Shown: positions 1-22,877 of the stretch, piece after piece
Layout: every line of letters starts with the position of its first letter
How positions within the stretch are numbered: position 1 is the stretch's first letter
Origin: Methyloversatilis thermotolerans
Lineage (GTDB): Bacteria > Pseudomonadota > Gammaproteobacteria > Burkholderiales > Rhodocyclaceae
Direction of reading: 5' to 3'
DNA length: 38,328 nt
Assembly: GCF_000372885.1 (NCBI RefSeq)
Contig: NZ_KB889967.1
Coordinates: forward strand, 1,204,886-1,243,213
The notes under the pieces: generated by a model
What the model was told of the DNA's origin: nothing
The model's input: the letters and a program-made list of their open reading frames with translations, nothing else
Database searches by the model: none
Program-made: the position numbers and the translations under genes

Positions 1-647
1 TACACCGGCAGCGGCTTGCCCGCCAGCGCGTTGACGATGATGAGCGGGATGAGCTTCTCGGGGAAGTGATAGGGGCCGTAGTTGTTCGAGCAGTTGGTGG
101 TCACCACCGGCAGACCGTAGGTGTGGTGCCAGGCGCGCACCAGGTGGTCGCTCGCGGCCTTGCTCGCCGAATACGGGCTGTTCGGCTCGTAGGCGTTCGT
201 CTCGCAAAACGGCGGATCGGTGGGCGAGAGCGAGCCATAGACCTCGTCGGTGCTCACTTGGTGGAAGCGGAAAGCCGCCTTCTCCTCGCCCTCGAGCGTG
301 CCCCAGTAGGCGCGCGCAGCCTCCAGCAAGGTGAAGGTGCCGGTCACGTTGGTGCGCATGAATTCGCCCGGGCCGTGGATCGAGCGATCCACATGCGATT
401 CGGCCGCGAAGTGCACCACGGCGCGCGGGCGGTGCGTACTCAGCAGTCGGTCAACGAGTTCGCGGTCGCAGATGTCGCCCTGCACGAACACATGCCGCGC
501 ATCGCCGGCCAGCGACGCCAGATTCTGCAGATTGCCCGCGTAGGTGAGCGCATCCAGATTGACCACCGGCTCGTCGCTGCCCGCCAGCCAGTCCAGTACA
601 AAGTTGCTGCCTATGAAGCCGGCTCCGCCGGTGACCAAGATCGTCAT
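1..647 (-). CDS. rfbB: dTDP-glucose 4,6-dehydratase RfbB, C-terminus cut by window edge
   Basis: This enzyme converts dTDP-glucose to dTDP-4-keto-6-deoxyglucose in the cytoplasm, the branch point for dTDP-rhamnose and related sugars. About 215 residues are visible, running off the left end of the window. The N-terminal Rossmann NAD motif [10 protein letters not shown] follows the start almost directly. Further on are [15 protein letters not shown] (the catalytic Thr-Asp-Glu segment) and [10 protein letters not shown] with the YxxxK pair, then the conserved [16 protein letters not shown] stretch. The ATG at 647 is preceded by an AGGAG Shine-Dalgarno sequence. It is the last gene of the exopolysaccharide locus visible here, 143 bp after the DUF1501 gene. 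Rest of an rml/rfb operon probably lies to the left (inference). The family call is very secure; the sugar finally made is not known. Confidence 0.95.
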
Positions 648-719: not shown

Positions 720-739
720 TTGCGTGACATTTCACGCAA
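720..739. promoter_or_regulatory. Perfect 8-bp inverted repeat between DUF1501 gene and rfbB
   Basis: The arms TTGCGTGA (720-727) and TCACGCAA (732-739) are perfectly complementary around a CATT spacer. The dyad sits about 75 bp upstream of the rfbB start and about 50 bp past the DUF1501 stop. It has no following T-run on the minus strand, so an operator or an RNA hairpin is as likely as a terminator. Function is inferred from position only. Confidence 0.35.
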
Positions 740-790: not shown

Positions 791-2053
791 TCAGGAGAAT
801 ATTCCCAGTGCAATCGGGTCGAACCCCGGAAGTATGCTGGCTACAGACGAAACGCCCATGCGACTCTTCAGCGCCTCTGCAAAAAGCGACCGATAATCTA
901 TCGTTGCCTTGAGGTAACGGCTGTTCGCCAATTGCGTCGCCGACAGCCCCGGCCATCCACCCGGGCAATAAACGCCTCCCTTCAGACTGCCTCCTATCGC
1001 CATCCATGTTGTCGCCATGCCGTGATCCGTCCCGCCGCTGCCGTTCTGGGCAGCGGTACGTCCAAACTCACTCATTGCGATGACGGTTACATTTCCGGAA
1101 AGCCCTCCGATGTCCGTGAAGAACGCCGACATGGAGTCAGAAAAGTTCATGAGCAGCGTGGACATGCGTCCACTCGCTTCGGCGCCCCCTTCCTGGCTAT
1201 GGGTGTCCCAGCCACCCAAAGACAGGGTAATCAACTCGACGCCGAGGCCCGATTTGATCAAGGACGCTCCCTGGCGCAACTGGCGGCCAAAATTCGAGCT
1301 CGGGTAAGTGGCGTTGTTCTGAACCGGAATGCTCGCAGCCGACTCGAGTTCGACCAGATTGCTCACGAGCTGACTGCCAATGACTCGAAGCGTTGTCGAG
1401 TTCGGATTATTGACGGGAAGCTCGTACCGGTAGGCATCGCTGATGACAGTCGAGATGGCCGCATGATCATCGGGCGAGCTTGCAAGGTTCAAAGAGGCGA
1501 TGTCAGGAAACGCGGACGCTGGCGTGGATGCTCCAGCAAGGCTGCGTGGCAGTACATCACTCAGCGCTATCGCTCGCTGAACGCCACTATCCGGCGTTTC
1601 GTTCAGATAGCGCGCAAGCCATCCTGTGAGCTCCTCCCCTGCCATCGAATGCTCGATCATGTCCTGGCCGGCGAAGTGAGACTGGTACGGATTCGGATAA
1701 TGAACCGCGGGCATGACGGCGACCATTCCCTTCGAATACAAGGCGTGCAGCGATGCCATGGAAGGGTGAAAGCCGAAGTAACCGTTCAGGTCCAGCACCT
1801 TACGGCTCTGTGAGGAATCAGGCCGCGGGATCGCTATGCTGGAACGCAAGGCATAGTAGTTCGCATCGCCGTAGGGAACCGCGACATTCAAACCATCCCA
1901 TCCGCCACGCAGGAACACGATGACGAGCGTATGACCCGCCCCAGCCGCGCCGGCCGGAGTGGAGAGAAGCGCGCTGCCTGCGCCCAACAAAGAGGATGCA
2001 CCCGCGCCGCCGATCGCCTTGAGCAGATGCTCCAAAAAAACTCTGCGCTTCAT
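791..2053 (-). CDS. DUF1501 domain-containing exported protein
   Basis: This 420-residue protein belongs to the DUF1501 family, which shares the alkaline phosphatase/sulfatase-like fold; its substrate is unknown. The N-terminus KRRVFL followed by an Ala/Gly-rich stretch to about residue 40 looks like a Tat signal, implying export in folded form with a metal. Family hallmarks are visible: FLRGGWDGLN (47-56), GGWDTH (280-285), SEFGR (328-332) and GTDHG (341-345). The Asp and His residues in these are likely metal ligands. The start at 2053 has an excellent AAGGAG site. That site lies beside the TAA stop of the upstream DUF1800 gene, 9 bp away, so the two are surely co-transcribed. DUF1800-DUF1501 pairs are widespread, but their shared job is not established. 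Its place inside a polysaccharide locus suggests action on the surface polymer (inference). Confidence 0.9.
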   Translation of the reverse strand: MKRRVFLEHLLKAIGGAGASSLLGAGSALLSTPAGAAGAGHTLVIVFLRGGWDGLNVAVPYGDANYYALRSSIAIPRPDSSQSRKVLDLNGYFGFHPSMASLHALYSKGMVAVMPAVHYPNPYQSHFAGQDMIEHSMAGEELTGWLARYLNETPDSGVQRAIALSDVLPRSLAGASTPASAFPDIASLNLASSPDDHAAISTVISDAYRYELPVNNPNSTTLRVIGSQLVSNLVELESAASIPVQNNATYPSSNFGRQLRQGASLIKSGLGVELITLSLGGWDTHSQEGGAEASGRMSTLLMNFSDSMSAFFTDIGGLSGNVTVIAMSEFGRTAAQNGSGGTDHGMATTWMAIGGSLKGGVYCPGGWPGLSATQLANSRYLKATIDYRSLFAEALKSRMGVSSVASILPGFDPIALGIFS

Positions 2054-2062
2054 GAGAGCTCC

Positions 2063-5000
2063 TTACTGCAACTGATACTCGGGCAAGACCATCAGCAGCT
2101 TGCCAAGCCGGCGAACGCGTATTTCGGCATCCGGCCAATCAGGTTTGAATGGATAGGTTCCGCCGTCTGTGAGCAGATCCTTTGCAAGCTGCACATGCCT
2201 CGCGGTAAAGGTCGGGCCCAAGAGGCGCTCCAGCATCAGGGCGGCAACTCCCTCCGCAGTCACACCACCACCGGCGGCCATGGTGTTCGAGAGAGAAAAT
2301 GATGTTCGTCCCTCTTCCGGCGCGTACGAAAGCAGGCGATCTGAAAACCTGGACCGCATCAGGAGCATGCCGCTGCTGACCCAGTCCTCACCGGAATCGG
2401 AATACCCGGTCGGCACGGAGTTAAGGTAGATCGGCATTCCTTGAATCTGCAGTTCGGACGCCAGATCGTTACCGCTTGAAACGCCGTCCATCTGTCTGAC
2501 CGCCCCTATCACAAACTCAAGAGGCGTCTTCACCTTTGCGCGACGATACTGCTCACCAAGGAACTCGGTCGAATTGAGAATGGTGCCAACAACTTGAGCT
2601 ATCTGGTCGGAAGCGCCGCTTTGCTCGATAAACTTCTCGGCACATCTATCAATCAAGCCCCCAGCCGGTACATCCGAAACAAGGAACGCGACAAGCTTCT
2701 GGCAGACGAAACGGGCCGTCGAAGGGTTGCGCGCCAGTATGTCGAGCACCGCGTCGCCCGCGCTCACCCCTGAGGCACTTATAGTCGTTCCAAGGACAAC
2801 CTTGCTGGTCGAGTCATGCTTCGACGTGTCAAAGAAGAACGCACCATCCTTCACTCCCCAGCCGGTAAATGCACGCGCCACCTCTTCGACATCCTTCTGG
2901 GTGTAGCCACCATTGATTCCAAGGGTGTGAAGCTCCAGAAGCTCGCGCGCATAATTCTCGTTCGGTGAGTTCTTCATGTTGCTCACGCCATCCAGCGTGT
3001 ACAGCATGGCCGGACTCCGGGCACTGATGCCCATGAGACGGCGAAAACTCCCCAGCGCCTCAGAACGGAAACCGGACATTTCGGCTGTCTCGTATGCGGC
3101 AACGAGGTGCGCGTTGTAGTTCGTGTTGAAGTGGTTATCCCAGAACCACGTCATCACCTCTCTGAGCTGACGTTTCGAGTAGGTTGCCCGGCGCAGGAAC
3201 TCGGATGCGACTTGCACATCCTCTGTCGATGTATTGGCCTTGGCTTCTGCATTCGAATCTTCGATAAGCGCGGGCCTGAGCTGCTCGGCAATGAACGCCG
3301 ATACCCCTTGGGCGACCACCTCATTGAATCTCATCGCGCCAAAGCTGGTTCGTTGCAAAACATGCCACGCCTGCTCAAAGACATCATCCGGCATCAAACT
3401 AAGAGTCTTAACAACCTCATTTCCGGCCGTGTCTTTGGCCTTCAGAACAATCTGCAATGTCTGGGGTTGGAAGCTCTCCTCCGGCGCTATGGCATAGGCC
3501 CAGCGTCCTGACGACTCGTCGACCTCAACAGCCTGCTCCGCTACTGCCGTCAATCCAGCTCCAGAAACAGTGATTCGGAGGGTCGGAGAAAGCGTGTTGT
3601 CCTTGACGACACCGCGGAGCACGAAACCCCTAAGGGGTACTTTGCCCCCATCAACATGACTGTCGACGGACAAGGTCGGAGGCGTCACGTCTTCCACAAG
3701 ATCGAGCGCCAGCGATGCCCTTGTTTCGTTGCTACCTTGGTCGACCGCTGTCACTGTCACCTTTACAGCACCAGGCTTTTCTTCGCCGAAGGAGATGGCA
3801 TCAAGATGCCAAGTTCCGGCGGTGGAGTGGTGAGTTGCGGCTGCGTGCAGCGTTTTACCGGAGGGCAGACCTATGACGACTTTGACGGTCTTGATCATTC
3901 GGTCGTCACTCGCCAGACCATACAGACTAAAGCCGTTCTTGCTTACAGCCTTGCCCGCTCCAGGTTGAAGAATGGAAACGGTAGGCGGTACGCGGTCATG
4001 CTCCGCACCGACCCTGAAGACGAAAGCACCAGGGGAAGAGATGACTGTGCTTACCTCCCAGTTCTCATAGAAGGTACCACCGAGCTTGAAGAGCTTCCCG
4101 CCCCCAAGCCCTTCAAGATCAAACGAAAGCGTGCCGGTTGCATCAGTAACGTTCTTCGCGCGCCACGTCATTCCGCCCGCGGCATCCGTTTCGTAGGCGT
4201 TTACTTCCTGATTCGCGAGAGGCGCACCTGTCACCACATCCAACACGGTGACGTTGAGCGCTGGATTGCCGACAGTGAATGTGTAAGCACCCGCATTCAC
4301 ATACGCTGCACTGTCCTTCTGGCTGCCATCGATCAGACTCGCCGCCCTCACCACGTAACGCTTCGTCCCAAGACCCGCAGGGTCCAGCTTCAGCATCCCC
4401 TGCGCGTCCGTCACGAATGTCCCCGCTCCAGCCAGCGCACCCGTACCGCTGTCACCCTCCAGCAGATACACACTGCGCCCCGCGTACGCACTGCCGTCAC
4501 GACCATCCACAACCTTCACCTGCAACTTCCCGGCCTGGATAACCACCTCGCCAGACTGCGTGATCTCCGGACTGTCCAGCGAGCTCAGGAACGGCTTCGT
4601 GCGCAGCACATACTTGCGACCCGACGCCAGACCATCCAGATCGAACGACACCGCACCCGAGGCATTCGTCGTCCTCTGCATCAGCCAGCTCAGCGTGCCG
4701 TCCGACTTCTTCTCATAGACCACCACCTCCTTGCCCGGCAGCCCCGCCTGGCTTACGCCATCCACCAGTTTGGCCACCACCGGCGCATTGCCCAGCACGA
4801 ACTTGTGCGGTCCATTTCCCCAATACACCGCACTCGTCTTCAACTGACCGTCCGTCGGACTCACCGCCTGCAGCACATACGGATCCGTCCCTATCGTCGG
4901 CGGATCCAGCTTCAACCACCCCTGGCTATCCGTCTGCACACTCGTCACCGCAACGTGATTGCCATCCGACTGCCATTTCCTTAGCGACACCAGTTGCCCC

Positions 5001-6971
5001 GCTCGCGGCTGGCCCGTCTGTCCATCCATCACCTGTACCTGCAGCTTGCCCACACGTACCGTCTTCCACCCCGTCTCGCTCACCTCCGCGAAGGTCACCC
5101 ACTGCGCGAACGGCTGACCCTCCAGCACATAGCTCTTGCCTGCGCCAAGACCCTCCAGATCGAATGCCGCCTGACCGTCCGCATTCAGCGTCCGCTTCGC
5201 CTTCCACTCCTTGCTTCCGTCCGACTTCTTCTCGTACGCATTCACCACCAGCCCCGCCAGACCCGCGCCCGTCACATCATCGAGCACCTGCACCGTCAGC
5301 GACGCATTACCCACCCTGAACGTGTAGCTGCCTTCGGCCACGTAACCCGGGCTGTCCTTCTGGCTGCCATCCACCAGACTCGAGGCGCGGATCACATACA
5401 CGCTGCTGCCCAGCCCCGCCGGATCCAGCCTCAAACGACCTTCCGCATCCGTGCGGAACTTCCCTATCCCCTTCGCTGTCGACGCGCTCGCCCCTTCCAG
5501 CAGAAACACGTCGCGCAAACCGTACGGCTGCCCGTTGCGTCCATCCAGCAACTGCACGTGCAGCTTGCCCGCCCTGAGCCGGACCTCGCCCGCCTGCGTC
5601 ACCTCCGCACTGTCGACCGAATGAACGTACGGCTTCGTCCGGAGAATGTAGCGTCTCCCTTCCGACAGACCGTCCAGATCAAACGAAACCGTTCCGTTCG
5701 CGTCCGTCGTCCTCTTGCCCACCGACACCAGCGTGCCATCCGCCTTCTTCTCGTACGCCGTCACTTCCTTGCCCGCTAGCACCGCCTGACTGCTCGCATC
5801 GACCAGCCGGCCTACCACCGGGGCGTTACCCAGCACGAACTTGTGCGGACCCTTGTTCAGATACACCGCGCTCGTCTTCAACTGACCATCGGTCGGGCTC
5901 GTCGCCTGCGCAACGTATGGATCCGTTCCCACCGCCGGCGGATCCAGCTTCAACCACCCTTGCGCGTCCGTCGTCGCACTCATCACCGATACATGATTGC
6001 CGTCCGACTGCCACTTCCTCAACGAAACAAGCTGCCCAGCCTTCGGCTGACCCGTCTGACCATCCACAACCTGCACCTGAAGCTTGCCAACGCGCACCTC
6101 ACGGCTTCCCGTCTGCGACGCCTCCGCAAACGTCAGCCACTGCCCGAACGGCTGGCCTTCCAGCGTGTAGTTGCGCCCGCTGCCCAGACCATCCAGATCG
6201 AACGTCGCCAGACCATCCGAACCCAGCGACTTCTTCGCCCTCCACACCTTGCTGCCATCGGCCAGCTTCTCGTAGGCATTCACCTCCAGCCCCGACATCG
6301 CCGCGCCCGTCACATCGTCAACAACCTTCAGCTTCAGACCTGCCGTACCCACCGTGAACACATACGCGCCCGCGCTCACATACGCTGCACTGTCCTTCTG
6401 GCTGCCATCGATCAGACTCGCCGCCCTCACCACGTAACGCTTCGTCCCAAGACCCGCAGGGTCCAGCTTCAGCATCCCCTGCGCGTCCGTCACGAATGTC
6501 CCCGCTCCAGCCAGCGCACCCGTACCGCTGTCACCCTCCCAGCAGATACACGCTGCGCCCCGCGTACGCACTGCCGTCACGACCATCCACAACCTTCACC
6601 TGCAGCTTCCCGGCCTGAATCACCACCTCGCCGGGCTGGGATACCACCTCACTGCTGAAACTGCTCAGAAAGGGCTTCAGGTCGAACTGGTAGGAGCGCC
6701 CCGCACCAAGACCTTCGAGTTGAAATGTGGTGCTGCCCGCAGAGTCGGTAGTCTGCTTGGCCCGCCACGTGCGTTTGCCGTCGGCAGCCACTTCATAGGC
6801 CTGAACATCAACACCGGCCAGACCTGCGGTCGAGACAGCGTCGACCACCCGGACCTGTAGCGGTGCCGGTGCTGTACGTGCGGAGATGGGTAGGACGAGG
6901 AAAAAAAGAATGAGACTGAGTGTTGCGTTGCGCGTTACGAACACACGTTGCGCAAGTGCTGAAAGAAACAT
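2063..6971 (-). CDS. Giant secreted DUF1800 protein with eleven repeat modules; frameshifted
   Basis: Read through one frameshift, this gene encodes 1635 residues. A signal peptide (about residues 1-33) is followed by about eleven modules of roughly 87 residues with a CnaB/transthyretin-like beta-sandwich look. They follow a four-type cycle: VDGRDGSAYAGRSVYLL, DDVTGA..VNAYEK, VDGQTGQP..LVSLRKW, and GKEV.AYEKK. Two Ig-like domains beginning PPTVSI and PPTLSV come next, then a 440-residue DUF1800 domain (about 1196-1635) with RTSFG, WFWDNHFN and ARELLELHTLG. As sequenced, the first frame (6971 to 6531, 146 residues) stops at TGA. The second frame runs open from 6592 to 2063 with no plausible start of its own. 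Most DUF1800 proteins are far shorter (about 450-600 residues). It is followed directly by its usual DUF1501 partner. A surface or matrix adhesin/enzyme role is inference; no substrate is known. Confidence 0.82.
4297..4539. repeat. Near-identical coding repeat, copy 1 (third type-A module)
   Basis: This segment, inside the DUF1800 gene, is almost base-for-base the same as 6376-6619. By eye there are about two substitutions and one inserted base in about 240 bp. The intervening type-A module (around 5340-5580) is clearly diverged, so the similarity is not just the general repeat. The offset of 2079 bp equals two four-module cycles. Confidence 0.85.
6376..6619. repeat. Near-identical coding repeat, copy 2 (first type-A module)
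   Basis: This is the partner of the segment at 4297-4539 and contains the inserted base of the frameshift. The two are in direct orientation. Recombination between them would delete two full module cycles, and the pair is also a place where short reads could be misassembled. Confidence 0.85.
6531..6546 (-). other. One-base insertion causing frameshift in the DUF1800 repeat gene
   Basis: The plus strand reads CCCTCCCAGCAG at 6534-6545. The near-identical copy of the same module around 4465-4475 reads CCCTCCAGCAG. The extra C changes LLEGDSG into LLGG followed by a TGA stop at 6533-6531. Upstream and downstream of this point the protein matches the module consensus perfectly in two different frames, so a single base explains the split. 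It could be a real inactivating or phase-variable mutation, or a sequencing or assembly error in a repeat. Confidence 0.9.
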
Positions 6972-7177: not shown

Positions 7178-8227
7178 TCAGGCGTGATCGGCCCGATAGG
7201 CGCGCTCGACACGGAGCGCAAGCTCACGAAAGTAGGCAGATCGATCATAACCATCGCATGCGGCGCGCGCGCTGATGCTCAGCGCGCGACGCGCTTGCGC
7301 GTCGGAAAGCAGTTGCTCAACCTGATTCCGCAGAGCCACGGAATCGCCTGCGGGAAAGGCCAATGCATTCACGCCGTGTCGCAGATACCCCTTCAGTCCC
7401 TCGACCTCCGAGGCTACGACCGGAACATCAAGCTCGATCGCCGCACCCAGACGGACCTGACCGGAACTCTTGTGATCCTCGCGCAGGCTGATGACACAGA
7501 CCGCCGCGCCCGCCAGCAGGCGGTCGTGCTCATCCTTGCCGATCTCGGAAAGGATCTCGGCACCGACGCGCCTGTTCAGGGCGTGAACCTGGGCAAGGTC
7601 AGATCGACTGCACACGACGACAAGCCGCCACCCTTGATCAGCGGCGGCTGCAAACAAGGTGGGCCAGTCGCAGGACGCCCGCCCGGAGGAAAAGACGTAG
7701 TCACCGTCACGGTCCGGCCGCAGCGACGCCGACCCCGATGCCTGCGTCCACCCGAGCAAAGGCCATGGAATGACCTGGACCACCTCGCGATCCAGACCGT
7801 ACAAGCGGGCGAACCTCGCGCGCTCGTACTCGGTCATGACATGCATGAAGGTCAAGGTACGGCGCATTGCGGGGCCAAGCACCGCCCTCACGAAGAGCCG
7901 GTACAACCGGCCCCTCCAGTCATCGCGCGACACTACGCTATAGTCGATCACCTCGAACAGCATGACGCGGCGGGGTCGGGGCAACAACGCATTCAGCACG
8001 ACGACGAGGCGCCCCCAGTCATACCAGTTGGGCACCACGTAATCGAAACTGTCCGCGCTCCGAAGTATGGACAACGCCGACAACAGGCCCATTACCCGGC
8101 CCGGCAGGCCACCACGCCGAATCCTCGAGAACGGCGTCGCAATGCTCTCGAGTTCGGCCGCGTACCAGAAGTCGACAAGGAGCCTGGGCCTTGCGCTTGA
8201 ATCAGGCGGGCAGGACGGCATCTGCAT
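7178..8227 (-). CDS. Glycosyltransferase, GT4-like fold (GT-B)
   Basis: This predicted cytoplasmic glycosyltransferase of 349 residues probably adds one sugar of the exopolysaccharide repeat unit. The C-terminal half shows the GT-B donor-binding arrangement: FSSGRASCDW, then VCVISLREDHKSSGQVRL and the VPVVASEVEGLKGYL segment, where nucleotide-sugar transferases bind the donor. The start at 8227 is chosen because ATG overlaps the TGA of the preceding gene as TGATG. A longer frame extends to 8296 but would run into that gene. It is the last sugar-transfer gene before the 206-bp gap. Donor and acceptor sugars cannot be read from the sequence. Confidence 0.8.
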   Translation of the reverse strand: MQMPSCPPDSSARPRLLVDFWYAAELESIATPFSRIRRGGLPGRVMGLLSALSILRSADSFDYVVPNWYDWGRLVVVLNALLPRPRRVMLFEVIDYSVVSRDDWRGRLYRLFVRAVLGPAMRRTLTFMHVMTEYERARFARLYGLDREVVQVIPWPLLGWTQASGSASLRPDRDGDYVFSSGRASCDWPTLFAAAADQGWRLVVVCSRSDLAQVHALNRRVGAEILSEIGKDEHDRLLAGAAVCVISLREDHKSSGQVRLGAAIELDVPVVASEVEGLKGYLRHGVNALAFPAGDSVALRNQVEQLLSDAQARRALSISARAACDGYDRSAYFRELALRVERAYRADHA

Positions 8228-9351
8228 CAGCCGTTCGCGAAACCGGAAGGCTCGCCCGAAAACACCTTTTCGTGGGCCGCGGTGACTGCCGTCCATGAAA
8301 AGGTCTTCATCGCGCGCGCACGCCCTTTCTGTCCCAGCTGCTGCAGACCGGCGGGGTCGCTGACCGCCTCAGTCAGCGCTCGCAGACAGTCATCGACATC
8401 TCCCTTGCGGAACTGCAACGCGCAGTCCGCGACGACATATCTGTTTTCCACGATATCGCTGCACAGGATGGGCGTTCCAAGCGCCATGTTCTCGAGTATC
8501 ACCGGAGACAGGCCTTCCACGTCCGATGGCTGCACATAGCAGTAAGCAGATTTCATCAGCGCGTGAGTGCGCTTGCCGTACACGAAACCGGGAAACACAA
8601 TGCGCGGGTCGGACGTCGCCTTGATGCTCTTCTCGAAGTCCGAGGGATTGGGCGAGCCACCGACGAGCACCAGCTTCTTGTCGGTGTTCAGCCGTTCGAA
8701 TGCCGGCACGAGATACTGCAGGCCCTTGTCCGGAATGAAGCGCCCGACGAAAAGAAAGTACTCGCCCGGCTTCAGGCCAAGCTCGTCGAGGATCGAGTGA
8801 TCCAGGTCGGTCTCGGAAACCTCGCTTCCAAAAGGAATGAACTCGTAGCTGCGGCGGAACTTCTCCTCGAACAGCTTCTTCACGAAAACATTGTCGAAAA
8901 TGACCTGTGTCGCGGCGATCGCCGTCAGATGCGACGACAGGCGGAGATAGAGCTTGCCGTACCACGGCCATTTGTCCCGCTTCCAGTCCACACCATCCTG
9001 ACTGATGAATACCCGCTTGCCAAAGAGCCGCAGAACAAGCCCGAAGATCGAGTTGCCTCCGTTCTGGATATGCACGATATCTGCCGTGTTGTGCACGATG
9101 ATGTCCCAGGTGCATTTCGCCGAATGCAACAAGGTGTCGAAACCCTTTTTCGCAACGGTACGAAAATGCTTGAACCTCACTCCGTCGACCACATCGGCCA
9201 ACGCGTCCTCGCCGGGATAGAGCCGGTTGTAGCCGATCACCTCGTGTCCATTTCGGGCAAGACGCGGCAGCAGTTCGGAAGCGAACTTGTCGGCGCCGGC
9301 ACAACCGGGACGAAGCGGGACCGAGCGAAAGCCGAAGGCCGCGATACGCAT
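8227..9351 (-). CDS. Glycosyltransferase family 4 protein
   Basis: This 374-residue retaining GT-B glycosyltransferase is likely to act on the lipid-linked repeat unit at the inner face of the membrane. The N-terminus has the glycine-rich acceptor-side segment RSVPLRPGCAGADKFA. The middle has FLFVGRFIPDKGLQYLVPAF, typical at the start of the GT4 donor domain. The motif DVEGLSPVILENMALGTP contains the E(x7)E pair of the family. A GTG at 9360 opens the frame, but AGGA lies only two bases before it, so the ATG at 9351 (spacing 11) is preferred. It overlaps the next gene by one base. Sugar specificity is unknown. Confidence 0.88.
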   Translation of the reverse strand: MRIAAFGFRSVPLRPGCAGADKFASELLPRLARNGHEVIGYNRLYPGEDALADVVDGVRFKHFRTVAKKGFDTLLHSAKCTWDIIVHNTADIVHIQNGGNSIFGLVLRLFGKRVFISQDGVDWKRDKWPWYGKLYLRLSSHLTAIAATQVIFDNVFVKKLFEEKFRRSYEFIPFGSEVSETDLDHSILDELGLKPGEYFLFVGRFIPDKGLQYLVPAFERLNTDKKLVLVGGSPNPSDFEKSIKATSDPRIVFPGFVYGKRTHALMKSAYCYVQPSDVEGLSPVILENMALGTPILCSDIVENRYVVADCALQFRKGDVDDCLRALTEAVSDPAGLQQLGQKGRARAMKTFSWTAVTAAHEKVFSGEPSGFANG

Positions 9352-9367
9352 CGGAAGCACCGTCCTG

Positions 9368-10264
9368 TCAGAGGTAGTCGCGATAATCGCGGTCGATGTA
9401 AGCCTTCAGCGCGACGCGCCAGTCGGACATGATGTTCAGTCCGCGCAGATGAAGCTTGCGATTGATGAGGCGTTCGGAATCCGGGCGCGGCGCGAAGAAC
9501 TCCTGCTTGAAGAAGTCCGAACTGACCGGGTTCACCTTCACCTGGTCGGCGATGCCCAGCTCCACCACGAGCTGCTGCGCCACCTCGAGGCGACTGGTCA
9601 CGCCCTCGCACACCATGTTGTACAGCCCCCAGTAGCGCTTTTCCATCAGCGCCTTCACCGAGCGCGCGAAATCGAAGGTGTAGGTCGGCGTGCCGAGCTT
9701 GTCATGCACCACGTTCAGTTCGGTCTTGCCTTCCTTCAACTGCTTCATTAGCTTCTGGATGAACTTCTTGTCCTTGCGCGGCCCGCCACCCATCATCCAG
9801 CCGGCACGGCATACCAGATGCTCGCGCACGTTCTGGGTGACGAACAATTCACCCATGTACTTCGAGCGCGCGTAGTGGCCCATCGGATTCGGGCGGTCCC
9901 AGTCGTCGAACGTGTCCTGCGAACCGTCGAAAATGCCTGCGGTGCTGATGTACAGCAGCGGAATGCCGAGCTCATTCGCGATATAGGTCGCGTTCTCGAC
10001 CGAGGTCGTGTTGGTCAGGTAGGCGTCTTCGATATTGTCCTCGCAGTACTCGAGGCTGGTATGCGCACCGAGGTGAAACAGGAAATCCGGCTTGAAGCGC
10101 TGCACGTCCTCGCGGTAGGCCTCGAGATCGCGAAAATCGAGGAAGGACAACCACTCCTCGTTCACGTCCTTGTCAGTGCAGCGCAGCTCATGCCCTTCGC
10201 GGAACGTGTGATAGAACGCCTCACCCAGCATGCCGCCGCAACCTGCGATATAGATCTTTGCCAT
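9368..10264 (-). CDS. RmlD-like NAD(P)-dependent sugar reductase (SDR)
   Basis: This 298-residue extended short-chain dehydrogenase resembles dTDP-4-dehydrorhamnose reductase. The Rossmann motif IAGCGGMLGEAF is at the N-terminus, LGAHTSLEYCEDN matches the RmlD segment around the sugar-binding region, and the catalytic YARSK (YxxxK) follows STAGIFDG. The ATG at 10264 has GAGG seven bases upstream; a longer frame to 10333 runs into the previous gene and was dropped. With rfbB in the same locus it may finish dTDP-L-rhamnose or another 6-deoxy sugar. It is divergent enough that reduction of a different keto-sugar is possible. Confidence 0.82.
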   Translation of the reverse strand: MAKIYIAGCGGMLGEAFYHTFREGHELRCTDKDVNEEWLSFLDFRDLEAYREDVQRFKPDFLFHLGAHTSLEYCEDNIEDAYLTNTTSVENATYIANELGIPLLYISTAGIFDGSQDTFDDWDRPNPMGHYARSKYMGELFVTQNVREHLVCRAGWMMGGGPRKDKKFIQKLMKQLKEGKTELNVVHDKLGTPTYTFDFARSVKALMEKRYWGLYNMVCEGVTSRLEVAQQLVVELGIADQVKVNPVSSDFFKQEFFAPRPDSERLINRKLHLRGLNIMSDWRVALKAYIDRDYRDYL

Positions 10265-10292
10265 GATTGTCCTCAGTTGACTGATATTGATC

Positions 10293-11549
10293 CTACGAAA
10301 CCTGCGCAACAGACGGCGTCGCCGACTGCACACCTACCGATTCATATACCGCCTGCATCGCGCGCGTATAACGCTCCGGTGAAAAATCGGATTCAACCCA
10401 CGCTCGCGCCTGCCGCCCCATCGCCGCGATCTGTTCATCGGCCATTTGCTGGAACTCGCTCAGGACGCGCGCGCAATCCGACACGTCACCCGACGTGAAA
10501 CAAGCCCCGGTGGCGCCTTCGCGCACCAGCTCAGGTATTCCGCCGATGCGGGCGCCGATCACCGGCTTGCCGAACGCATAAGCCTCGAGCACGCTCATCG
10601 GCGCGTTCTCATACCACTCCGACGGCAGTACCACAGCCCGCGCACTGGCGATGAGCTGATGCAGATCCGCACCGGACCTGAAACCCACAAACTCGACACG
10701 GGCGCCCGACGCCGAAGCAAGCGCCTTGAGGTTAGCCTCCAGCGGACCAGTACCCGCCACCTTCACCTGAACACCTGACTGCGCGGCTGCGCGAATGAGC
10801 GTTGCGACGCCCTTCTCCGTGGACAAGCGCCCGAAATACAGAAAATGACTGCCGGGTGCAAACACCGGCGCGAACGCCGATGCATCAACAAAATTCGGCA
10901 CCACCGCAAACCGCTCGGCCGGCCAACCCCAGCGCACGAAAGTGTCGCGATAGAAAACGCTGGGCGCAACCACACGTGTCACGTAGCGACGATACGAATG
11001 CAGCAGACGGTCGTGCAGCGCGCTTTCAATCCCGACCACGAGACTGGCGCCCAGAGAGTCGCGCACGCAACGATGACGCACGACATTGAAAACGCTGCCA
11101 TCCCGGCAACGCTCGCACACACCCGTTGCATTGAGCATCTTGTAGGCCGGACACGCGATCTTCAGATCGTGAGTGGTCAGCACCACCGGCACCTTGCGCG
11201 CGTGCAGAAGCTGAAGAACGGATGGCGAAATGTGGTGGTAGATGTTGTGCAGATGCGCGACATCGGGGCGGAACTCATCGAGCAGGCGCGCGAGCCGGTT
11301 TCGCGCCTCGAACGAATAGATCACCTTCCCGGCCATCGAAAGCTTCTGAACCGCCGAGTAATCCCCGCCGAACTCAAGGCCTTCGATGAAGAAGCGAGAC
11401 CATTCGCTCGGAATGTTCCGCTCGTGCTTCATCGAGAAAAAAGCGCATGACCAGCCGAGGCGTTCGAACAGCGCCGCGTGATCCAGATAGACCGCGTCCG
11501 CGCCACCCCTTCGGTAGTGGTAGTTATTGATATTCAGCAGTCGAGGCAT
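10293..11549 (-). CDS. Glycosyltransferase family 4 protein
   Basis: This 418-residue GT-B enzyme has the family's N-terminal YHYRRGGADAVYLDHAALFE (acceptor domain with a GGA loop) and VAHLHNIYHHISPSVL. FLYFGRLSTEKGVATLIRA opens the donor domain, and EWYENAPMSVLEAYAFGKPV carries the E(x7)E motif. A cluster CERCRDGSVFNVVRHRCVRD in the first half, with three Cys, is typical of a subgroup of exopolysaccharide GT4 enzymes. A GTG one codon upstream also fits; the ATG is chosen. It ends 28 bp before the sugar reductase gene. The sugar transferred is unknown. Confidence 0.88.
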   Translation of the reverse strand: MPRLLNINNYHYRRGGADAVYLDHAALFERLGWSCAFFSMKHERNIPSEWSRFFIEGLEFGGDYSAVQKLSMAGKVIYSFEARNRLARLLDEFRPDVAHLHNIYHHISPSVLQLLHARKVPVVLTTHDLKIACPAYKMLNATGVCERCRDGSVFNVVRHRCVRDSLGASLVVGIESALHDRLLHSYRRYVTRVVAPSVFYRDTFVRWGWPAERFAVVPNFVDASAFAPVFAPGSHFLYFGRLSTEKGVATLIRAAAQSGVQVKVAGTGPLEANLKALASASGARVEFVGFRSGADLHQLIASARAVVLPSEWYENAPMSVLEAYAFGKPVIGARIGGIPELVREGATGACFTSGDVSDCARVLSEFQQMADEQIAAMGRQARAWVESDFSPERYTRAMQAVYESVGVQSATPSVAQVS

Positions 11550-11589
11550 CACGAATCCGGGTTGCAGGCAAAAAAATTGTCATCGCGCC

Positions 11590-12693
11590 TCATGCCTCGT
11601 GCTCAAGCGAACGAACGAACTCATCGTAGCGTTGCGCAATGCGATCCCATCGGAAATCATCGGCATGCCGAGCGCCTTGCTCGAAAAGCTCCGCACCACG
11701 ATCCCGCGCCATGAGCAGCTTCGCCACCAGATCATCGACCAAGCGCTCGCTATCGACCATCAGTCCGGGCCAGCTCTCGAGCGTTTCCGGAAAATCGCCG
11801 ATGTCCGTGCAGATGATGGGCTTGCCGAAAGCCATCGCAAGCTTCAGAACGCCGCTCGTCGTTCCTTCCAGATAGGGCAGAACCACCACATCACACGCGG
11901 CAAAGTAACGCTGAACGTCTTCGTGCGGAATCATGAAATCGTGAACCAGCACGTTGCCGGCGGTACGCGCCCGCTCCAGCGCGTCAAGTACTACAGGTCG
12001 CTGCTCCGCCTTCCCCGCAACAACAAACTGGAAGTCTTCTGATTCACGCAATCTGACGGCCGCATCGATGAACTCCGCGATGCCCTTGCGATGATCGAGA
12101 AATCCGAAGAACAAGGCGGTGAACCTGTCGGCGGACAACTCGGGCAACTCTCTCCGCGCCTCAGCCTGGGTCAGACCTCGCGTATTGAACAGGTCATAGA
12201 CGCCGTGCGGCACCACGAGTAGAGGCATATCAAGCCCCAGCGCCCGCATACCCTCGGCCTGACGTTTCGAATGCACCACTGCGCCGTCGAAGGAGCGGTA
12301 GAAGAACCTCATTTCCAACTTGCTCCACCGGCGAGGGTAATGAGGCAGCAGGTCATGCACCGTAATGACACAACAGATCCCGAACAGCCGAAAGAGCCGG
12401 ACGATGAGCGCATCAAGAAACGCAACCTTGAGCCATGACTGAAAGACAACAAGCCGAGGCCGCCTGTTAAGAACCGTCCATGCAAGACGAAAAATATCAA
12501 GCGGGTAATGACGCGTGCGGCGAAATACTTTCAGGACAGGAATTTCTGAACCGTACTTTCCCTCGTCGAAGGAGTCAGCGGTAAGAAAAAAAACATTTCT
12601 CAGCCGCATGAGCTCACGAAGAAGAGAAACCGAGTAATCGGTCAGCCCCGAGTTTCCAGTAAAACAAACAAAGGCAGCTCTTGGGTTCAACAT
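11590..12693 (-). CDS. Glycosyltransferase family 4-like protein
   Basis: This 367-residue GT-B-fold protein has an N-terminal acceptor domain (CFTGNSGLTDYSVSLLREL), VITVHDLLPHYPRR in the middle, and ALFFGFLDHRKGIAEFIDAA at the start of the donor domain. The region VVLPYLEGTTSGVLKLAMAF replaces the usual E(x7)E with a variant TSG form, as seen in several exopolysaccharide transferases. It probably adds one sugar of the repeat unit in the cytoplasm. It starts 31 bp after the GH5-like gene stops, in an AT-rich spacer. Specificity cannot be predicted. Confidence 0.85.
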   Translation of the reverse strand: MLNPRAAFVCFTGNSGLTDYSVSLLRELMRLRNVFFLTADSFDEGKYGSEIPVLKVFRRTRHYPLDIFRLAWTVLNRRPRLVVFQSWLKVAFLDALIVRLFRLFGICCVITVHDLLPHYPRRWSKLEMRFFYRSFDGAVVHSKRQAEGMRALGLDMPLLVVPHGVYDLFNTRGLTQAEARRELPELSADRFTALFFGFLDHRKGIAEFIDAAVRLRESEDFQFVVAGKAEQRPVVLDALERARTAGNVLVHDFMIPHEDVQRYFAACDVVVLPYLEGTTSGVLKLAMAFGKPIICTDIGDFPETLESWPGLMVDSERLVDDLVAKLLMARDRGAELFEQGARHADDFRWDRIAQRYDEFVRSLEHEA

Positions 12694-12724
12694 TACATAA
12701 AATAAACTTCAAAAAAGAAGCGAA

Positions 12725-13879
12725 TCAACTCAAATTACGATTAATCTTTGAAATCATATCAAGCTGATAAGAACGAGCACCCGATTTGGTGACAGACCAG
12801 TCGTTAGCCATCGGTGAATAATCAAAGACCCACAGGGCACCTCTACGCACCCCAGAATCTAACATGCCATTCAAAAGCCGCTCATAGGAAGCCTTCTCTT
12901 GCACAGAGTAAAAACCTGATTTTACACCGAACTCCCCCACAAAAATCTCTTTTGACAGCGCCTTTGAAACACTTATAAGGAGTTGCAACTGTCGAAAATA
13001 ATCATCCCTCAACATAACATCTGATCCGCGATCACCGGACGGATAAAGATGTACCGACAAGAGATCCATACCCTCATTCAACCGTCTCTGGTTAGCCAAG
13101 ATTTCGTCGGCGGTATCTGCAGAACCCCTAGCAAGTGACAGGTTGAATGCATTTTTGCGGGGCGCATCAAATCCGCCACTTAGCACAGCCGTCGGCACCA
13201 GCGCTCTCACGCTTCTTGCGAAGCGCGCGATCACGCGGGATATCAGCAGGGAAGACACCAGATCGGCGTCCGTTCTCTGTGCGGGTGTACCACGGGATGC
13301 ATCGGTTTTAGGCCACCACTTGTATCCGTTCGGCAAATCAGCGTAGGTATTCAGCTCATTGGCGAATTCCCACGCGACAAAGGCCGGGCTGGAACGATAT
13401 CTGCCTACCACGTCGGCGATGAAGCGATCGGCGAACAGCGCTGTGGCCGATTTATCGTCAGCCCATGCCGAAACCGGTTCACCGTGAAGATCGGACACCG
13501 AAGACACATTCCAGATCAGCGTCGGTACCAGCTTCACTCCGTGCTTCTCGGCCGCCCAGACCACCTCGTCGAGCAGGTCAAAGTAGCGGTTGCGACCGGC
13601 GGTGTAGTGCCGCCATTCATCAGGCCAGAAGACGGATACCGGAAAGCGAACGAAGGGAATGCCGAGATCGGCGAGTTCGTGCAGCCTTACACCGGGCGAT
13701 CTGACGCCTGCATGGTTCAACAGGCGTCCGAGGAAGAGATCGAAGCAATTCACTCCGAATCCGCGCGGTCCCGCGGCCCGCTCGGTCTGGGCCTGGACAG
13801 GCTCCGGACGGGCGGCCATGAAAGGCACGCACGCGCACACGCGGACGAAGTCTCTCCGCGTGCGGTCGGGCAAAGTCAT
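12725..13879 (-). CDS. GH5-like (clan GH-A) glycoside hydrolase, exported
   Basis: This 384-residue protein looks like a cellulase-type family 5 hydrolase. The N-terminus TRRDFVRVCACVPF resembles a Tat signal, so action in the periplasm or outside is likely. Clan GH-A catalytic residues are visible: WEFANELN with the acid/base at Glu175, and FVGEFGVKSG with the likely nucleophile Glu316. HLYP (277-280) and ALWVFDYSP near the end fit the barrel's later strands. The start overlaps the GT2 stop as ATGA, showing tight coupling. In exopolysaccharide loci such enzymes trim, edit or release the nascent polymer (known for the class); the bond cut here is unknown. The codon and base composition of its 3' half is more AT-rich than its neighbours. 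Confidence 0.85.
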   Translation of the reverse strand: MTLPDRTRRDFVRVCACVPFMAARPEPVQAQTERAAGPRGFGVNCFDLFLGRLLNHAGVRSPGVRLHELADLGIPFVRFPVSVFWPDEWRHYTAGRNRYFDLLDEVVWAAEKHGVKLVPTLIWNVSSVSDLHGEPVSAWADDKSATALFADRFIADVVGRYRSSPAFVAWEFANELNTYADLPNGYKWWPKTDASRGTPAQRTDADLVSSLLISRVIARFARSVRALVPTAVLSGGFDAPRKNAFNLSLARGSADTADEILANQRRLNEGMDLLSVHLYPSGDRGSDVMLRDDYFRQLQLLISVSKALSKEIFVGEFGVKSGFYSVQEKASYERLLNGMLDSGVRRGALWVFDYSPMANDWSVTKSGARSYQLDMISKINRNLS

Positions 13880-14871
13880 GCGGACACACCCGTGACGCCG
13901 CGCAAGCCATCAGACAGCGCACGCAGCGTGACGCGAGCCAACGCGAACTCTCTGCGATAGCAACACCGGAGGAGTTCACGTGTGACCCGCATGACGGCAA
14001 CGAAGGCCAGCCAGGGAAAGAATTTGCGGTAGAACACCACCAGGTTGCGATTCAGGTAGTACTGCGAAAGACGTGATCGACTGCTTCTTGTCGATGTCCC
14101 TATCGTTCCGCCTTCCTTGTGATACACCACGCTTTCAGACGCGATGGCCTGCCGCCACCTGCCTGATGCACGCACCGCCCAGTCGATTTCTTCGTAGTAG
14201 AGGAAATAGTGTTCTTCCATCAGGCCGACCTCCTCGACGAAGCGGGCCGGTACGAACAGGGAGGCGCCGGAAATGTACGCGGGCTGCTCTCCGGAAAATG
14301 ACGCGAGCGTCGCGGAATCGAATGGCTGGCCTTGGGCAATCTGATCGCCGCGCGCCGTGTACTTGTTGAACGTGGCGCCGCCGTATGCTTGTATGCGCGT
14401 CCGGTCGTCGTAGTACACGAGCACAGAACCTACGATGCCGATCGAGGCGTCCTCCGTCGCGACTTTTTCGAGAGCAACGAGCGCATCCGGATGCACAGCC
14501 GTGTCGTTGTTAAGTATCCAGAGATACTTTGCACCACACTGCATGCCCAGGCGGAGACCGAGGTTGTTGCCGCGGGCGTATCCGCCATTGACCGCAGCCC
14601 TGACCAGGACAACATCAAGGTGGCCGAGGCGATGCGAAAAGGTCGCCATCGCCCCCTCATCGAGGACCGTGAATCTGCCCGTCCGGCCGGACTGATCGGC
14701 CCAGCCCGATATGCGCGCCACGGAGTCATCCGTGGATGCGTTATCCACGACGATGACGCAGAAGGACCGGTGATTCAATACGGTAAGGCTTTCAAGGCAC
14801 TCGACAGTGTCCGTCCAGCCATTCCAGTTGAGCACCACTATGGCAACCGTCGCCTCGCCTCGCATGTTCAT
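13876..14871 (-). CDS. Glycosyltransferase family 2 protein
   Basis: This 331-residue inverting GT-A transferase has VVLNWNGWTDTVECLESL near the N-terminus, VVDNASTDDS for nucleotide binding, and WILNNDTAV as the DxD-like metal site. GASLFVPARFVEEVG and YYEEIDWAVRA form the catalytic-base segment common to rhamnosyltransferase-type GT2 proteins. Two hydrophobic stretches near the C-terminus may touch the membrane. The start at 14871 overlaps the TGA of the polymerase gene as ATGA and has an AAGGAAGAG site upstream. A longer frame to 14955 was rejected. A rhamnosyl transfer would fit with rfbB, but that is inference. Confidence 0.9.
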   Translation of the reverse strand: MNMRGEATVAIVVLNWNGWTDTVECLESLTVLNHRSFCVIVVDNASTDDSVARISGWADQSGRTGRFTVLDEGAMATFSHRLGHLDVVLVRAAVNGGYARGNNLGLRLGMQCGAKYLWILNNDTAVHPDALVALEKVATEDASIGIVGSVLVYYDDRTRIQAYGGATFNKYTARGDQIAQGQPFDSATLASFSGEQPAYISGASLFVPARFVEEVGLMEEHYFLYYEEIDWAVRASGRWRQAIASESVVYHKEGGTIGTSTRSSRSRLSQYYLNRNLVVFYRKFFPWLAFVAVMRVTRELLRCCYRREFALARVTLRALSDGLRGVTGVSA

Positions 14872-16385
14872 GCCGCGTGCTCTTCCTTGGGCTGGCAGGC
14901 AGCCAGAGCTATTGCGACCATCATGAACACGATGGCCATATTGTAGGGAATCCACAATATCGCCCGGAACATGAAGACCACCGACAGCGCGCCCGCCGTT
15001 GCCGCGACGAATCTCGGGTTGGTCAACGTGCCGGACAGCATTTTTTCAAGAATCACCCAGGCTGGATAAAGAAAGATGAGCATGAATACAATCAGCGCCG
15101 GCACACCGGATTCCACGGTCAGCGCAAGCAAATGACTGTCGAGTGTGGTGACACCGCTTCCGGTCTTAATGCCGGCTACCGCACCAGCAGTACCTGCACC
15201 ACTACCCAAGAGCGGAGACTCCTTGATCGCGGGCCTAGCGAGTTCGATCATCATCATTCTGACCTGAGTGCTCGACCCCTCTGCGGCAGACCTTCCTTGG
15301 GCAATTAGAAGCACCGTCGGCGTTACAACCGCTAAAGCACCTGCCGCCACCATGAAAAACGCAAACTTGCGCATTGATTTTTCGTACTTGTTTGATTTCT
15401 TTCGGGTGGAAAAAAACCTCAACAGCAACACCACGCCTAATCCCGCACCCAGAGCAAGCAACCCCGCTCTGGTGCCGCTAAACCAAATGCAGATCGGCGC
15501 AGCAAAAATCACAATCCATCCAAGAAATTTTTCAAACCGAGGACCAGGCCACAAAACCGCAGCCATACCAAAGCAAAAGGCCATAGCCATGAACTCAGCC
15601 ATTACAAGTGGATGTTCGAATGTTCCTTGGGTTCGAAACTGGCCGTCGCGCACACGACCTTGCTGCATGGCGAGGCTAAGATCTTCTAGGCCCTGAGTTT
15701 CCGGCGCAATATCGGCGAGAAAATTTCTCTCGAGCACCCGCTCGACAAACACGTAAAAGCCGATCAAAAGCACAAGAACCAAAGTAGTCCGAAGAAAGCG
15801 GCCCTGAAAATTCTCGCCAGTAAAGAACAATGCAGAAATAAAATAGATCGAATAAAAATAGAAAATTTCCCATGCAACGGTGACCACAGAATATATTTCT
15901 GACTTGGATACAAAACACGAAGCCAACCGCAGCAGCATGAGCACGGTGATGATCCAGAATCCCGTTTTCAACGGACCTGGCTGCGGACGGAGCAATGCCT
16001 TTGCAACAAAGCCTCTGCTCACCAGCAGATAGAAGGTCAGTACGATGCTCAAACCCACAATGACTCGTCGGCCATCAAGCGCAGGGAGCTTGCCGACCTT
16101 GATGATCATGTAGGTCGGCCACAGCGCAAAGATGACCAGCAAGGCGGTCATCCACCACAACCGGAATCGCTCACTGATAGGCGTATCGCGCGACGCCAGC
16201 AAGGCAACGAAAAACACCACGCCTATTGCGAGGAACGGGGCCAATCTGGCTGAAAACTGCGGAAACAGCGCACTCGCAACACCAAAAAGGAACAGGATGA
16301 ATCCGAAGCCCGCAAGCAAGACTGCTTTTCCCAGCAACACAGGGGTACGTTGCAGCAGTGTTCGTGGGTGGGTCGTTTGGATCAT
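14868..16385 (-). CDS. O-antigen ligase/Wzy polymerase family membrane protein
   Basis: This 505-residue integral membrane protein has about eleven hydrophobic segments and a large periplasmic loop. GTRAGLLALGAG and SPLLGSGAGT, then DSHLLALTVESGVPAL, match the O-antigen ligase-like family (PF04932), in which the loop Arg and the His/Glu segment are functional. In a Wzx/Wzy pathway it would polymerise flipped repeat units in the periplasm. The ATG at 16385 is preferred for its AGGA site; a TTG at 16427 would overlap the previous stop as TTGA and add 14 residues. The coding region from about 15280 to 15960 is unusually AT-rich, common for wzy genes and suggesting transfer. Confidence 0.87.
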   Translation of the reverse strand: MIQTTHPRTLLQRTPVLLGKAVLLAGFGFILFLFGVASALFPQFSARLAPFLAIGVVFFVALLASRDTPISERFRLWWMTALLVIFALWPTYMIIKVGKLPALDGRRVIVGLSIVLTFYLLVSRGFVAKALLRPQPGPLKTGFWIITVLMLLRLASCFVSKSEIYSVVTVAWEIFYFYSIYFISALFFTGENFQGRFLRTTLVLVLLIGFYVFVERVLERNFLADIAPETQGLEDLSLAMQQGRVRDGQFRTQGTFEHPLVMAEFMAMAFCFGMAAVLWPGPRFEKFLGWIVIFAAPICIWFSGTRAGLLALGAGLGVVLLLRFFSTRKKSNKYEKSMRKFAFFMVAAGALAVVTPTVLLIAQGRSAAEGSSTQVRMMMIELARPAIKESPLLGSGAGTAGAVAGIKTGSGVTTLDSHLLALTVESGVPALIVFMLIFLYPAWVILEKMLSGTLTNPRFVAATAGALSVVFMFRAILWIPYNMAIVFMMVAIALAACQPKEEHAA

Positions 16386-16423
16386 GGATGGAATTTCCTG
16401 TTGTGCTGTATCAGGGCCTTGAA

Positions 16424-17671
16424 TCAAGGTCCGACGTGCCGACCGTCATGGATGTCGGCCTCATGTGCGCGTGAGGACTGCGCGCATGTTCGCATCGCTT
16501 CGGCAAGATGGGCCTGGTAGCGGCCGATCTTCTCGCGGGCGATGGCGTTGCCGCACTCGATTTCGGCCTTGAGTTCCTGCCTTCGCGCAAGCCCTTGTTC
16601 GATCTTCTCGAACGCCTCGTCGGTGCTCAGCCGCGCGCCATCGGCGACCCAGTCGTAGCCGAGCGACGAGAAAAGGCCTTCGAACTTGCGGCTGTAGGCG
16701 AGCGGCACGACCGGTACGCCGGACGAGAACGCGGCGATGCAGGCGTGCATGCGCGCACCGGTGAGGAAATCGAGGCCCGCGATGAAAGTCTTGGCGTCGC
16801 TCGGACTTTTGAATTCCGGCGCCACGCGAGCAGCCGGAAACTCAGCAGCCAGCGCCCGTATCGCAATCCTGTCGTCGTCCGCCGGAAGCGCATCGGGTAT
16901 GACGTGCGGTACGAGCCACACCTCGATATCGCTCCTGTGGGTCCACGCCGCAAGAAGCTTGCGCATGAGCGCCGGGTAGTCGAGGGTCAGACCGAACTGG
17001 TTGCCACCGGTGTAGCCGCCGGAGAACATCAGCCCGGAGACATTGAGCCCCACTCTCAAGCGGCCGTCCGTGTGCGCGGGCAGCGAGGTATAGGGCAGGC
17101 GGAAGGCCACATCGATGACTTCATCGGTATTTCCAGTGACCGCAAGCTTGACCAGATAGTCGGCCGACAGCGTATCGCGGGCAAAAACACGGGCGCAGCG
17201 TCGCATCACGGCCGCGGCGATGATGCGTGCCCAAGCTTGCTTGAACGGCCCTATGGTCTGCGGGCTCAGGATCAGCGGCTTGCGCTTTGCGATGACGGCG
17301 ATCTTGCTCGCGATCTGGAAGATGAAACGCGTGTTGCCGTAGATGTCGGCAAAACTGTCGCCTTCACCGATGTCGAGTACGAGATCGCACTGTTCCACCT
17401 GCCGGAGGAAGCCGGAGCGACCGGTCAGCATCCGCTTGATGGATACTCGCTCGCCTATCGTGATGTCCGAACCGGCAGGCGCGTAGCTGCTGCCGCCCTG
17501 GGTACCGAACACGATGAACCTGACGCGTACGTCAGCGGCGAGGGCCGCAGCCTCACAAATGGCGATCTGCGATTCGGTCAGCGCGCCTACGCCGAGATTG
17601 TCGGATGAGAGGGAATGCCACAACAAACCGATCGTCAAGACGGGCTGATGAGCATGTGCGTCGTGCTTCAT
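16424..17671 (-). CDS. Polysaccharide pyruvyl transferase family protein
   Basis: This 415-residue protein of the WcaK/AmsJ/CsaB family transfers pyruvate from phosphoenolpyruvate to a sugar, giving an acidic ketal. Visible family features are the N-terminal GLLWHSLSSDNLGVGALTES with a Rossmann-like start, LILSPQTIGPFKQ, FARDTLSADYL, and a C-terminal TGARMHACIAAFSSGVPVVP with the catalytic-site His. ATG overlaps the stop of the preceding gene as TAATG and has a GGGAGA site. It is adjacent to an FrhB-like gene, an arrangement often seen in exopolysaccharide loci. A charged polymer would be the expected result. Confidence 0.92.
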   Translation of the reverse strand: MKHDAHAHQPVLTIGLLWHSLSSDNLGVGALTESQIAICEAAALAADVRVRFIVFGTQGGSSYAPAGSDITIGERVSIKRMLTGRSGFLRQVEQCDLVLDIGEGDSFADIYGNTRFIFQIASKIAVIAKRKPLILSPQTIGPFKQAWARIIAAAVMRRCARVFARDTLSADYLVKLAVTGNTDEVIDVAFRLPYTSLPAHTDGRLRVGLNVSGLMFSGGYTGGNQFGLTLDYPALMRKLLAAWTHRSDIEVWLVPHVIPDALPADDDRIAIRALAAEFPAARVAPEFKSPSDAKTFIAGLDFLTGARMHACIAAFSSGVPVVPLAYSRKFEGLFSSLGYDWVADGARLSTDEAFEKIEQGLARRQELKAEIECGNAIAREKIGRYQAHLAEAMRTCAQSSRAHEADIHDGRHVGP

Positions 17672-20941: not shown

Positions 20942-20989
20942 GGATGCGAGCTCGGATGCGTCTGGACAGAATTCGAAATTGTGACTCAC

Positions 20990-22780: not shown

Positions 22781-22877
22781 GTCTGACCTCGTTTGTTGTG
22801 GTTGTGTTACGAGGCCAGCGTAACGACGGTGTATTACGGTCTTGTGTACGCAAGGCCAGCGGCATGCCCACGCCGCG

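Follow-up and report, generated by a model that had tools for sequence, protein, structure and literature searches.

The 38,328-nucleotide stretch of Methyloversatilis thermotolerans DNA considered here (the window) carries at its left end, on the minus strand, a gene for a large modular DUF1800 protein located 9 nt upstream of a DUF1501 gene, and in the genus this modular pair is linked to exopolysaccharide (EPS) loci. The link is real in the genus, and it is absent from the family at large and from the modular relatives found elsewhere. The best reading, to which a probability of roughly 0.4 is given, is that of an exported enzyme pair, mounted on a modular stalk and recruited by one lineage of EPS cassettes.

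According to the proposed mechanism, the large DUF1800 protein would exit by Sec (a signal peptide is seen), its 11 prealbumin/transthyretin-like modules and its two Ig-like domains forming a stalk with the DUF1800 domain displayed at the end. The DUF1501 protein, a putative metal hydrolase or transferase with an alkaline phosphatase superfamily fold, would exit already folded through a Tat-like route. Both proteins would cooperate outside the inner membrane, a joint action suggested by their nearly constant adjacency. In the genus, an ancestor of the pair came to close an EpsI-type EPS cassette, as five genomes show, and the substrate would most likely be the EPS polymer or a surface structure carrying it; binding to or modification of the polymer by the pair is plausible.

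Linkage to EPS loci in the genus and beyond

The genus sample comprises 13 genomes, six of which (G000, G001, G005, G007, G011, and G012) carry a gene of the window type, and the modular pair lies at an EpsI/glycosyltransferase locus in 5/5 assessable ones (G000, G001, G005, G007, and G012); G011 is cut by a contig end, with no stand-alone EpsI found there. In G000, G001, G007, and G012, 12-21 kb separate the DUF1800 domain from the stand-alone EpsI. The gene is divided in G005, its N-terminal fragment standing at the end of contig C24, ~13 kb from EpsI, and its remainder on contig C34 beside rfbB. In each of the five genomes the pair constitutes the far end of a run of polysaccharide genes beginning at EpsI, separated from EpsI by at least two glycosyltransferases. 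The window contains five glycosyltransferases according to Pfam, and matching to hidden Markov models (HMMs) of the GT4 and GT2 families recovers two in G001, three in G012, two in G007, and three in G005 (contig C24), with Pfam backing those of G007 and single genes of G012 and G005. Stand-alone EpsI occurs without the DUF pair in G003, G004, G008, and G010, and neither EpsI nor the pair is present in G002, G006, and G009. The genus also has eight DUF1800 paralogues of the short type, which reside on contigs other than that of EpsI, or >150 kb away from it.

Outside the genus, a class-wide search for the module array (369 genomes, E ≤ 1e-15) matched, besides the own genome, G1022, G856, and G799, which belong to other families of the class and encode intact DUF1800 proteins with DUF1501 adjacent. 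A search of the phylum with the Ig-like and DUF1800 part (398 genomes, E ≤ 1e-60) additionally matched G652, which is weakly modular, and G571, which is not modular. Within the order, the long DUF1800 frames of G337, G401, G325, G188, and G089 are devoid of modules and were discarded as long frames of G+C-rich DNA. In a tree of 73 DUF1800 domains, 11 modular rows fall inside a 13-row clade (SH-aLRT 97) together with the non-modular L141 and L068, a pattern that reads as one gain and one loss of the array, and the six genus rows constitute one clade (SH-aLRT 99). An association of modular DUF1800 proteins with polysaccharide loci, as expected from the initial annotation, holds for the assessable genomes of the genus but for 0/3 assessable cases outside it, G011 and L067 being cut by contig ends. 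With these three cases the array is rejected as an indicator of EPS loci; it characterises a single DUF1800 clade, is not a polysaccharide feature, and as a stalk implies no polysaccharide role.

Pairs of DUF1800 and DUF1501 genes occur across many phyla, both genes being present in 68/80 diverse loci at ≤725 nt from each other, and the DUF1800 proteins, with a median length of 553 aa (77/80 loci), mostly lack an array. A control used HMMs seeded with glycosyltransferases of the genus EPS loci (17 GT4 and 7 GT2), which were run on open reading frames (ORFs) of at least 180 aa. It covered 107 non-modular DUF1800 loci (28 relatives and 79 diverse), the flanks being nominally 10 kb long and less where a contig ends. 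Any GT4/GT2 match was found in 6/107 loci and at least two matches in 0/107, which contradicts a general link of DUF1800/DUF1501 loci to polysaccharide genes. As an independent check, the two nearest neighbours at each of the non-modular loci were picked (152 proteins), and a Pfam scan of 110 of them disclosed 19 families with at least two members, none of them a glycosyltransferase and the commonest being response regulators and histidine kinases. Clustering of 1017 neighbours from 108 loci yielded no polysaccharide family, as judged by eye, among the 25 clusters listed; a recurrent partner besides DUF1501 was also rejected, the largest cluster (31 loci) being regulator-like. In addition, 55 plasmid records match DUF1800, none of which matched the module array, and no EPS locus is found in two annotated neighbourhoods. 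The neighbour clusters, together with the GT4/GT2 HMM and Pfam controls, rule out EPS association as a trait of the DUF1800 family and show the plain pair to be something other than a polysaccharide system.

Several observations weigh against the recruitment of the pair by an EPS cassette, including (i) the lack of any GT4/GT2 match in the 40.0, 23.4, and 38.0 kb around G1022, G856, and G799, and of a polysaccharide locus within the 8 kb seen at G652; (ii) the EPS linkage, which counts as one event within the modular clade because the six genus rows form a single clade; (iii) the origin of the GT4/GT2 HMM seeds, derived partly from these very loci, so that the 5/5 holds partly by construction, and drawn from the genus, so that sensitivity is lower in distant taxa; and (iv) the state of the gene itself, which as assembled falls into two ORFs read in different frames, so that signal peptide and first module are severed from the remainder, the G001 gene being interrupted too, ~20 residues into a B-type module.

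A serious rival, though a somewhat unlikely one, holds that the job of the pair is unrelated to the polymer, the two genes sitting at the edge of an exchange site for EPS cassettes and travelling along with them. The location outside EPS loci of the three assessable modular pairs beyond the genus is consistent with such a passenger, and so is the presence of the same SLC13-like, CysQ-like, and CysN-like flank (by eye) at the pair-bearing G007, G011, and G012 and at the pair-less G008. Moreover, the G+C content drops from 0.65-0.70 to 0.55-0.65 over the polysaccharide genes, the higher values lying further right, and the nearest relatives of EpsI and of the DUF pair are not the same. Passive travel, however, accounts less readily for a linkage that persisted in all five assessable genomes while the pairs diverged to 48-66% identity and the glycosyltransferases came to differ, and for the pair being each time on the operon strand as its final two genes.

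The SLC13-like, CysQ-like, and CysN-like genes (L033, L035, L036, and L184) border the EPS site in G007, G011, and G012, and partly in G008, a shared flank that suggests a common chromosomal site for changing EPS cassettes. The sulfation genes beside G007, G011, and G012 were rejected as partners of the pair; they flank the pair-less G008 too and probably mark the chromosomal site. At the end of the G003 EpsI locus (L181:14517-19676), the place that the DUF pair has in relatives is occupied by a protein of 1719 aa that looks exported, contains large internal repeats, and ends in a GH5/GH39-like domain, and G008 has a beta-helix protein there; this end of the EPS locus may accommodate interchangeable extracellular proteins.

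Architecture and predicted chemistry of the two proteins

Both genes are genuine members of the families to which the initial annotation had assigned them, the DUF1501 protein matching PF07394 (E 4.8e-26, 92.3 bits against a cut-off of 27) and residues 1077-1508 of the main DUF1800 ORF matching PF08811 over positions 1-419 of the 419-position profile (E 3e-107, 359.8 bits against a cut-off of 26.1). The structural model of the DUF1501 protein (pLDDT 89.8, pTM 0.87) retrieves with Foldseek 19 PDB chains at E ≤ 0.001, comprising sulfatases, alkaline phosphatases, and EptC, all of the alkaline phosphatase superfamily by title; by sequence, no solved structure matches it up to E 1. Residues D53, S125, H126, D283, H285, E329, R332, and D343 are invariant in 58/58 rows and H344 is conserved in 57/58, and every residue invariant across the 58 homologues is present in the window protein, whose N terminus, MKRRVFLEHL, is twin-arginine-like by eye, in line with the alkaline phosphatase-like motifs and Tat-like signal described earlier. 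The model shows an alkaline phosphatase superfamily fold with the conserved residues intact, these being candidate metal ligands and a candidate nucleophile, and the protein would act as a metal hydrolase or transferase. The formylglycine C/SxPxR signature (CxPxR or SxPxR) is absent from the window protein, and such a string occurs in 4/58 homologues. Compared to the sulfatases, alkaline phosphatases, EptC, and LtaS of the superfamily, the DUF1501 protein shares the fold (match at E ~1e-4) and the invariant D/S/H/E/R residues, but the identity is 9-14% and the TM-scores are low (0.22-0.38 among the matches listed).

The DUF1800 domain is modelled with high confidence (pLDDT 93.5, pTM 0.94), and a Foldseek search of the PDB yields nothing at E ≤ 0.001, its top match reaching E 0.1 with a probability of 0.15; against a viral structure library the sole match is another DUF1800, and no solved structure matches the domain by sequence up to E 1. 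Residues H78, E136, N137, R140, E141, E144, D158, H183, and R290 are invariant in 62/62 rows, and this His/Glu/Asp/Arg set suggests a catalytic or metal site, making the domain a putative second enzyme. Some non-modular DUF1800 proteins are lipoprotein-like (L068:3049-4917 and L077:2780-4372), a rough lipobox pattern fitting 18/77.

The array preceding the DUF1800 domain contains, as had been proposed, about eleven beta-sandwich modules in a four-type cycle: an HMM built from the window protein's own modules finds 11, ten in the main ORF and one whole, followed by the head of the next, in the N-terminal piece, where a Sec-like signal peptide is recognized by eye. Module lengths cycle through 85, 88, 85, and 88 residues, with identities within a type of 65% (A), 84% (B), 64% (C), and 59% (D), whereas modules of different types share 19-47%. 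Two 85-residue modules are atypical, namely the first, 47-48% identical to its assigned type C, and the last, 42-46% identical to its assigned type A. At the DNA level, repeat copies are spaced 1038, 1042, and 2079 nt, and Tandem Repeats Finder, whose period limit is 500, reported nothing in the array. Modules of the same type differ mostly by silent changes (dN/dS ~0.13 for B, 0.24 for D, 0.32 for C, and 0.50 for A). The Pfam cut-offs of Transthyretin, bMG3, and SpaA are passed by the whole-protein score and by no single stretch alone. The two predicted Ig-like domains hold up as relatives of each other, with 29/98 aligned residues identical and a score of 61 against a shuffle mean of -30 and maximum of 0 (200 shuffles), and Pfam Big_7 falls under its cut-off in this region. 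Array and Ig-like domains would act as a stalk displaying the C-terminal DUF1800 domain.

The same architecture admits an unlikely alternative, in which the array is the active part of a modular adhesin or matrix protein engaged in cell-cell or cell-matrix contacts, with DUF1800 and DUF1501 serving to export, mature, or anchor it. Prealbumin-like arrays resemble the stalks of surface proteins, as the SpaA and bMG3 scores indicate, the module number ranges from 4 to 14 among relatives, and the array is under purifying selection. Nevertheless, most DUF1800 proteins have no array, nor do L141 and L068 within the modular clade, and the pair therefore works without it.

Gene layout and reading frame

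The features of the locus are collected in Table 1. Pfam and NCBIfam (TIGR01181) matches confirm the initial description of the pair as lying between polysaccharide transferase genes, to its right, and rfbB, to its left.

Table 1. Features of the modular DUF1800/DUF1501 locus (window positions)
Feature	Position	Strand	Evidence
rfbB, truncated by window edge	3..647	-	TIGR01181, E 7.6e-95
Terminator-like hairpin immediately 3' of DUF1501	720..739	-	Consensus scan; weak (3 in region against 6.3 expected in shuffles)
DUF1501 protein, 420 aa	791..2053	-	PF07394
Modular DUF1800 gene, main ORF, 1509 aa, without a start bearing its own signal peptide	2063..6592	-	
DUF1800 domain, helical, residues 1077-1509	2066..3364	-	PF08811
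Two tandem Ig-like domains, residues 868-968 and 969-1076	3365..3991	-	Mutual alignment; weak Big_7
Ten main-ORF modules (85/88 aa), order D-A-B-C-D-A-B-C-D-A, the first split by the frame change	4004..6583	-	Module HMM, repeat spacing
Modular DUF1800 gene, N-terminal piece in other frame: signal peptide, first module, head of second	6531..6971	-	
Frame-change stretch (overlap of the two DUF1800 ORFs), within first D-type module	6531..6592	-	
First beta-sandwich module, 85 aa, residues 38-122 of N-terminal piece	6606..6860	-	Module HMM, E 2e-36
Polysaccharide genes: four GT4, RmlD-like, GH5-like, GT2, Wzy_C, pyruvyl transferase, FrhB-like, Wzx	7178..20210	-	Pfam
EpsI, B-type (exosortase-associated)	20261..20989	-	NF045609, E 4.8e-87, 291 bits against cut-off 220; PF11984

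The domains of the modular DUF1800 protein are all present, but what was annotated as one gene is split between the two frames. The frame change may be either a real break or an assembly error, and programmed frameshifting or phase variation as its cause is supported by no test. Both breaks, that of the window (6531-6592) and that of G001 (L031/L032), lie ~20 residues into an 88-residue module. A single open frame is found in G012 (1886 aa, 14 modules), L067 (1040 aa, 4 modules), G1022 (1555 aa, 10 modules), G856 (1485 aa, 9 modules), and G799 (1065 aa, 4 modules); the gene of G007 is crossed by an assembly gap and those of G005 and G011 by contig ends. It is possible, though less likely than not, that the window gene is a recent pseudogene or has been switched off, leaving the system idle in this strain at present, as the frame change and the interrupted G001 gene would suggest. 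The main ORF nevertheless remains open over its full length with the conserved DUF1800 residues, module pairs show dN < dS, and the frame change may stem from assembly error, all of which speaks against such a loss.

The description of the locus as exosortase-type is borne out by EpsI but not by an exosortase gene: the window contains none, and PF09721 has two matches in the genome, located ~70 kb and 2.3 Mb away from EpsI. Adjoining EpsI (window 21374-23089) is a phytase-like esterase whose tail resembles PEP-CTERM, and which also stands beside EpsI in G001, G003, and G010. Glycoside-hydrolase-like proteins occur in EPS loci of the genus, including (i) a GH5-like protein just below the Pfam cut-off (window 12725-13879); (ii) a protein GH5-like by similarity in G012 (L036:17028-17816); and (iii) a GH16 protein in G007 (L034).

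Known systems and significance

Among the papers listed in literature searches on DUF1800 and DUF1501, none reports a tested function. According to a 2016 report (PMC5122149), DUF1800/DUF1501 genes adjoin bacterial chitin synthase genes, a Tat motif is present on DUF1501, and a functional link has been proposed; DUF1501 modules are mentioned in two papers on compartmentalised PVC bacteria (PMC4452313, PMC4960237). The chitin synthase loci, as described in PMC5122149, resemble the window in having the same two adjacent families tied to a horizontally moved glycan synthesis locus, but the partners there are a chitin synthase and a sugar epimerase, whereas here they are an EpsI/Wzx/Wzy locus with an 11-module DUF1800 protein, a comparison made on gene content. 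The system proposed as undescribed is not wholly so, the plain pair beside chitin synthase being already published.

Like PEP-CTERM/EpsH-type EPS loci, the window comprises a B-type EpsI, Wzx, Wzy, glycosyltransferases, and a neighbouring PEP-CTERM protein; unlike them, it has no exosortase, and Pfam/NCBIfam reported no PEP-CTERM on the DUF pair. The resemblance to the prealbumin-stalk surface proteins (SpaA, bMG3, and transthyretin-like) lies in the tandem beta-sandwich modules and the whole-protein score above the Pfam cut-offs, with the difference that the window protein terminates in a DUF1800 domain and follows a four-type repeat cycle.

The survey sets the modular clade apart from the plain DUF1800/DUF1501 pair. 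A broader and rather improbable proposal is that DUF1800 is an enzyme of unsolved fold and works with the phosphatase-type DUF1501 as a two-enzyme surface machine of general use; a single clade would have mounted this machine on a long modular stalk, and one genus would have enlisted it as a finishing or anchoring step of EPS. Because no solved structure resembles the confidently modelled DUF1800 domain, a single structure could settle the chemistry of the family.

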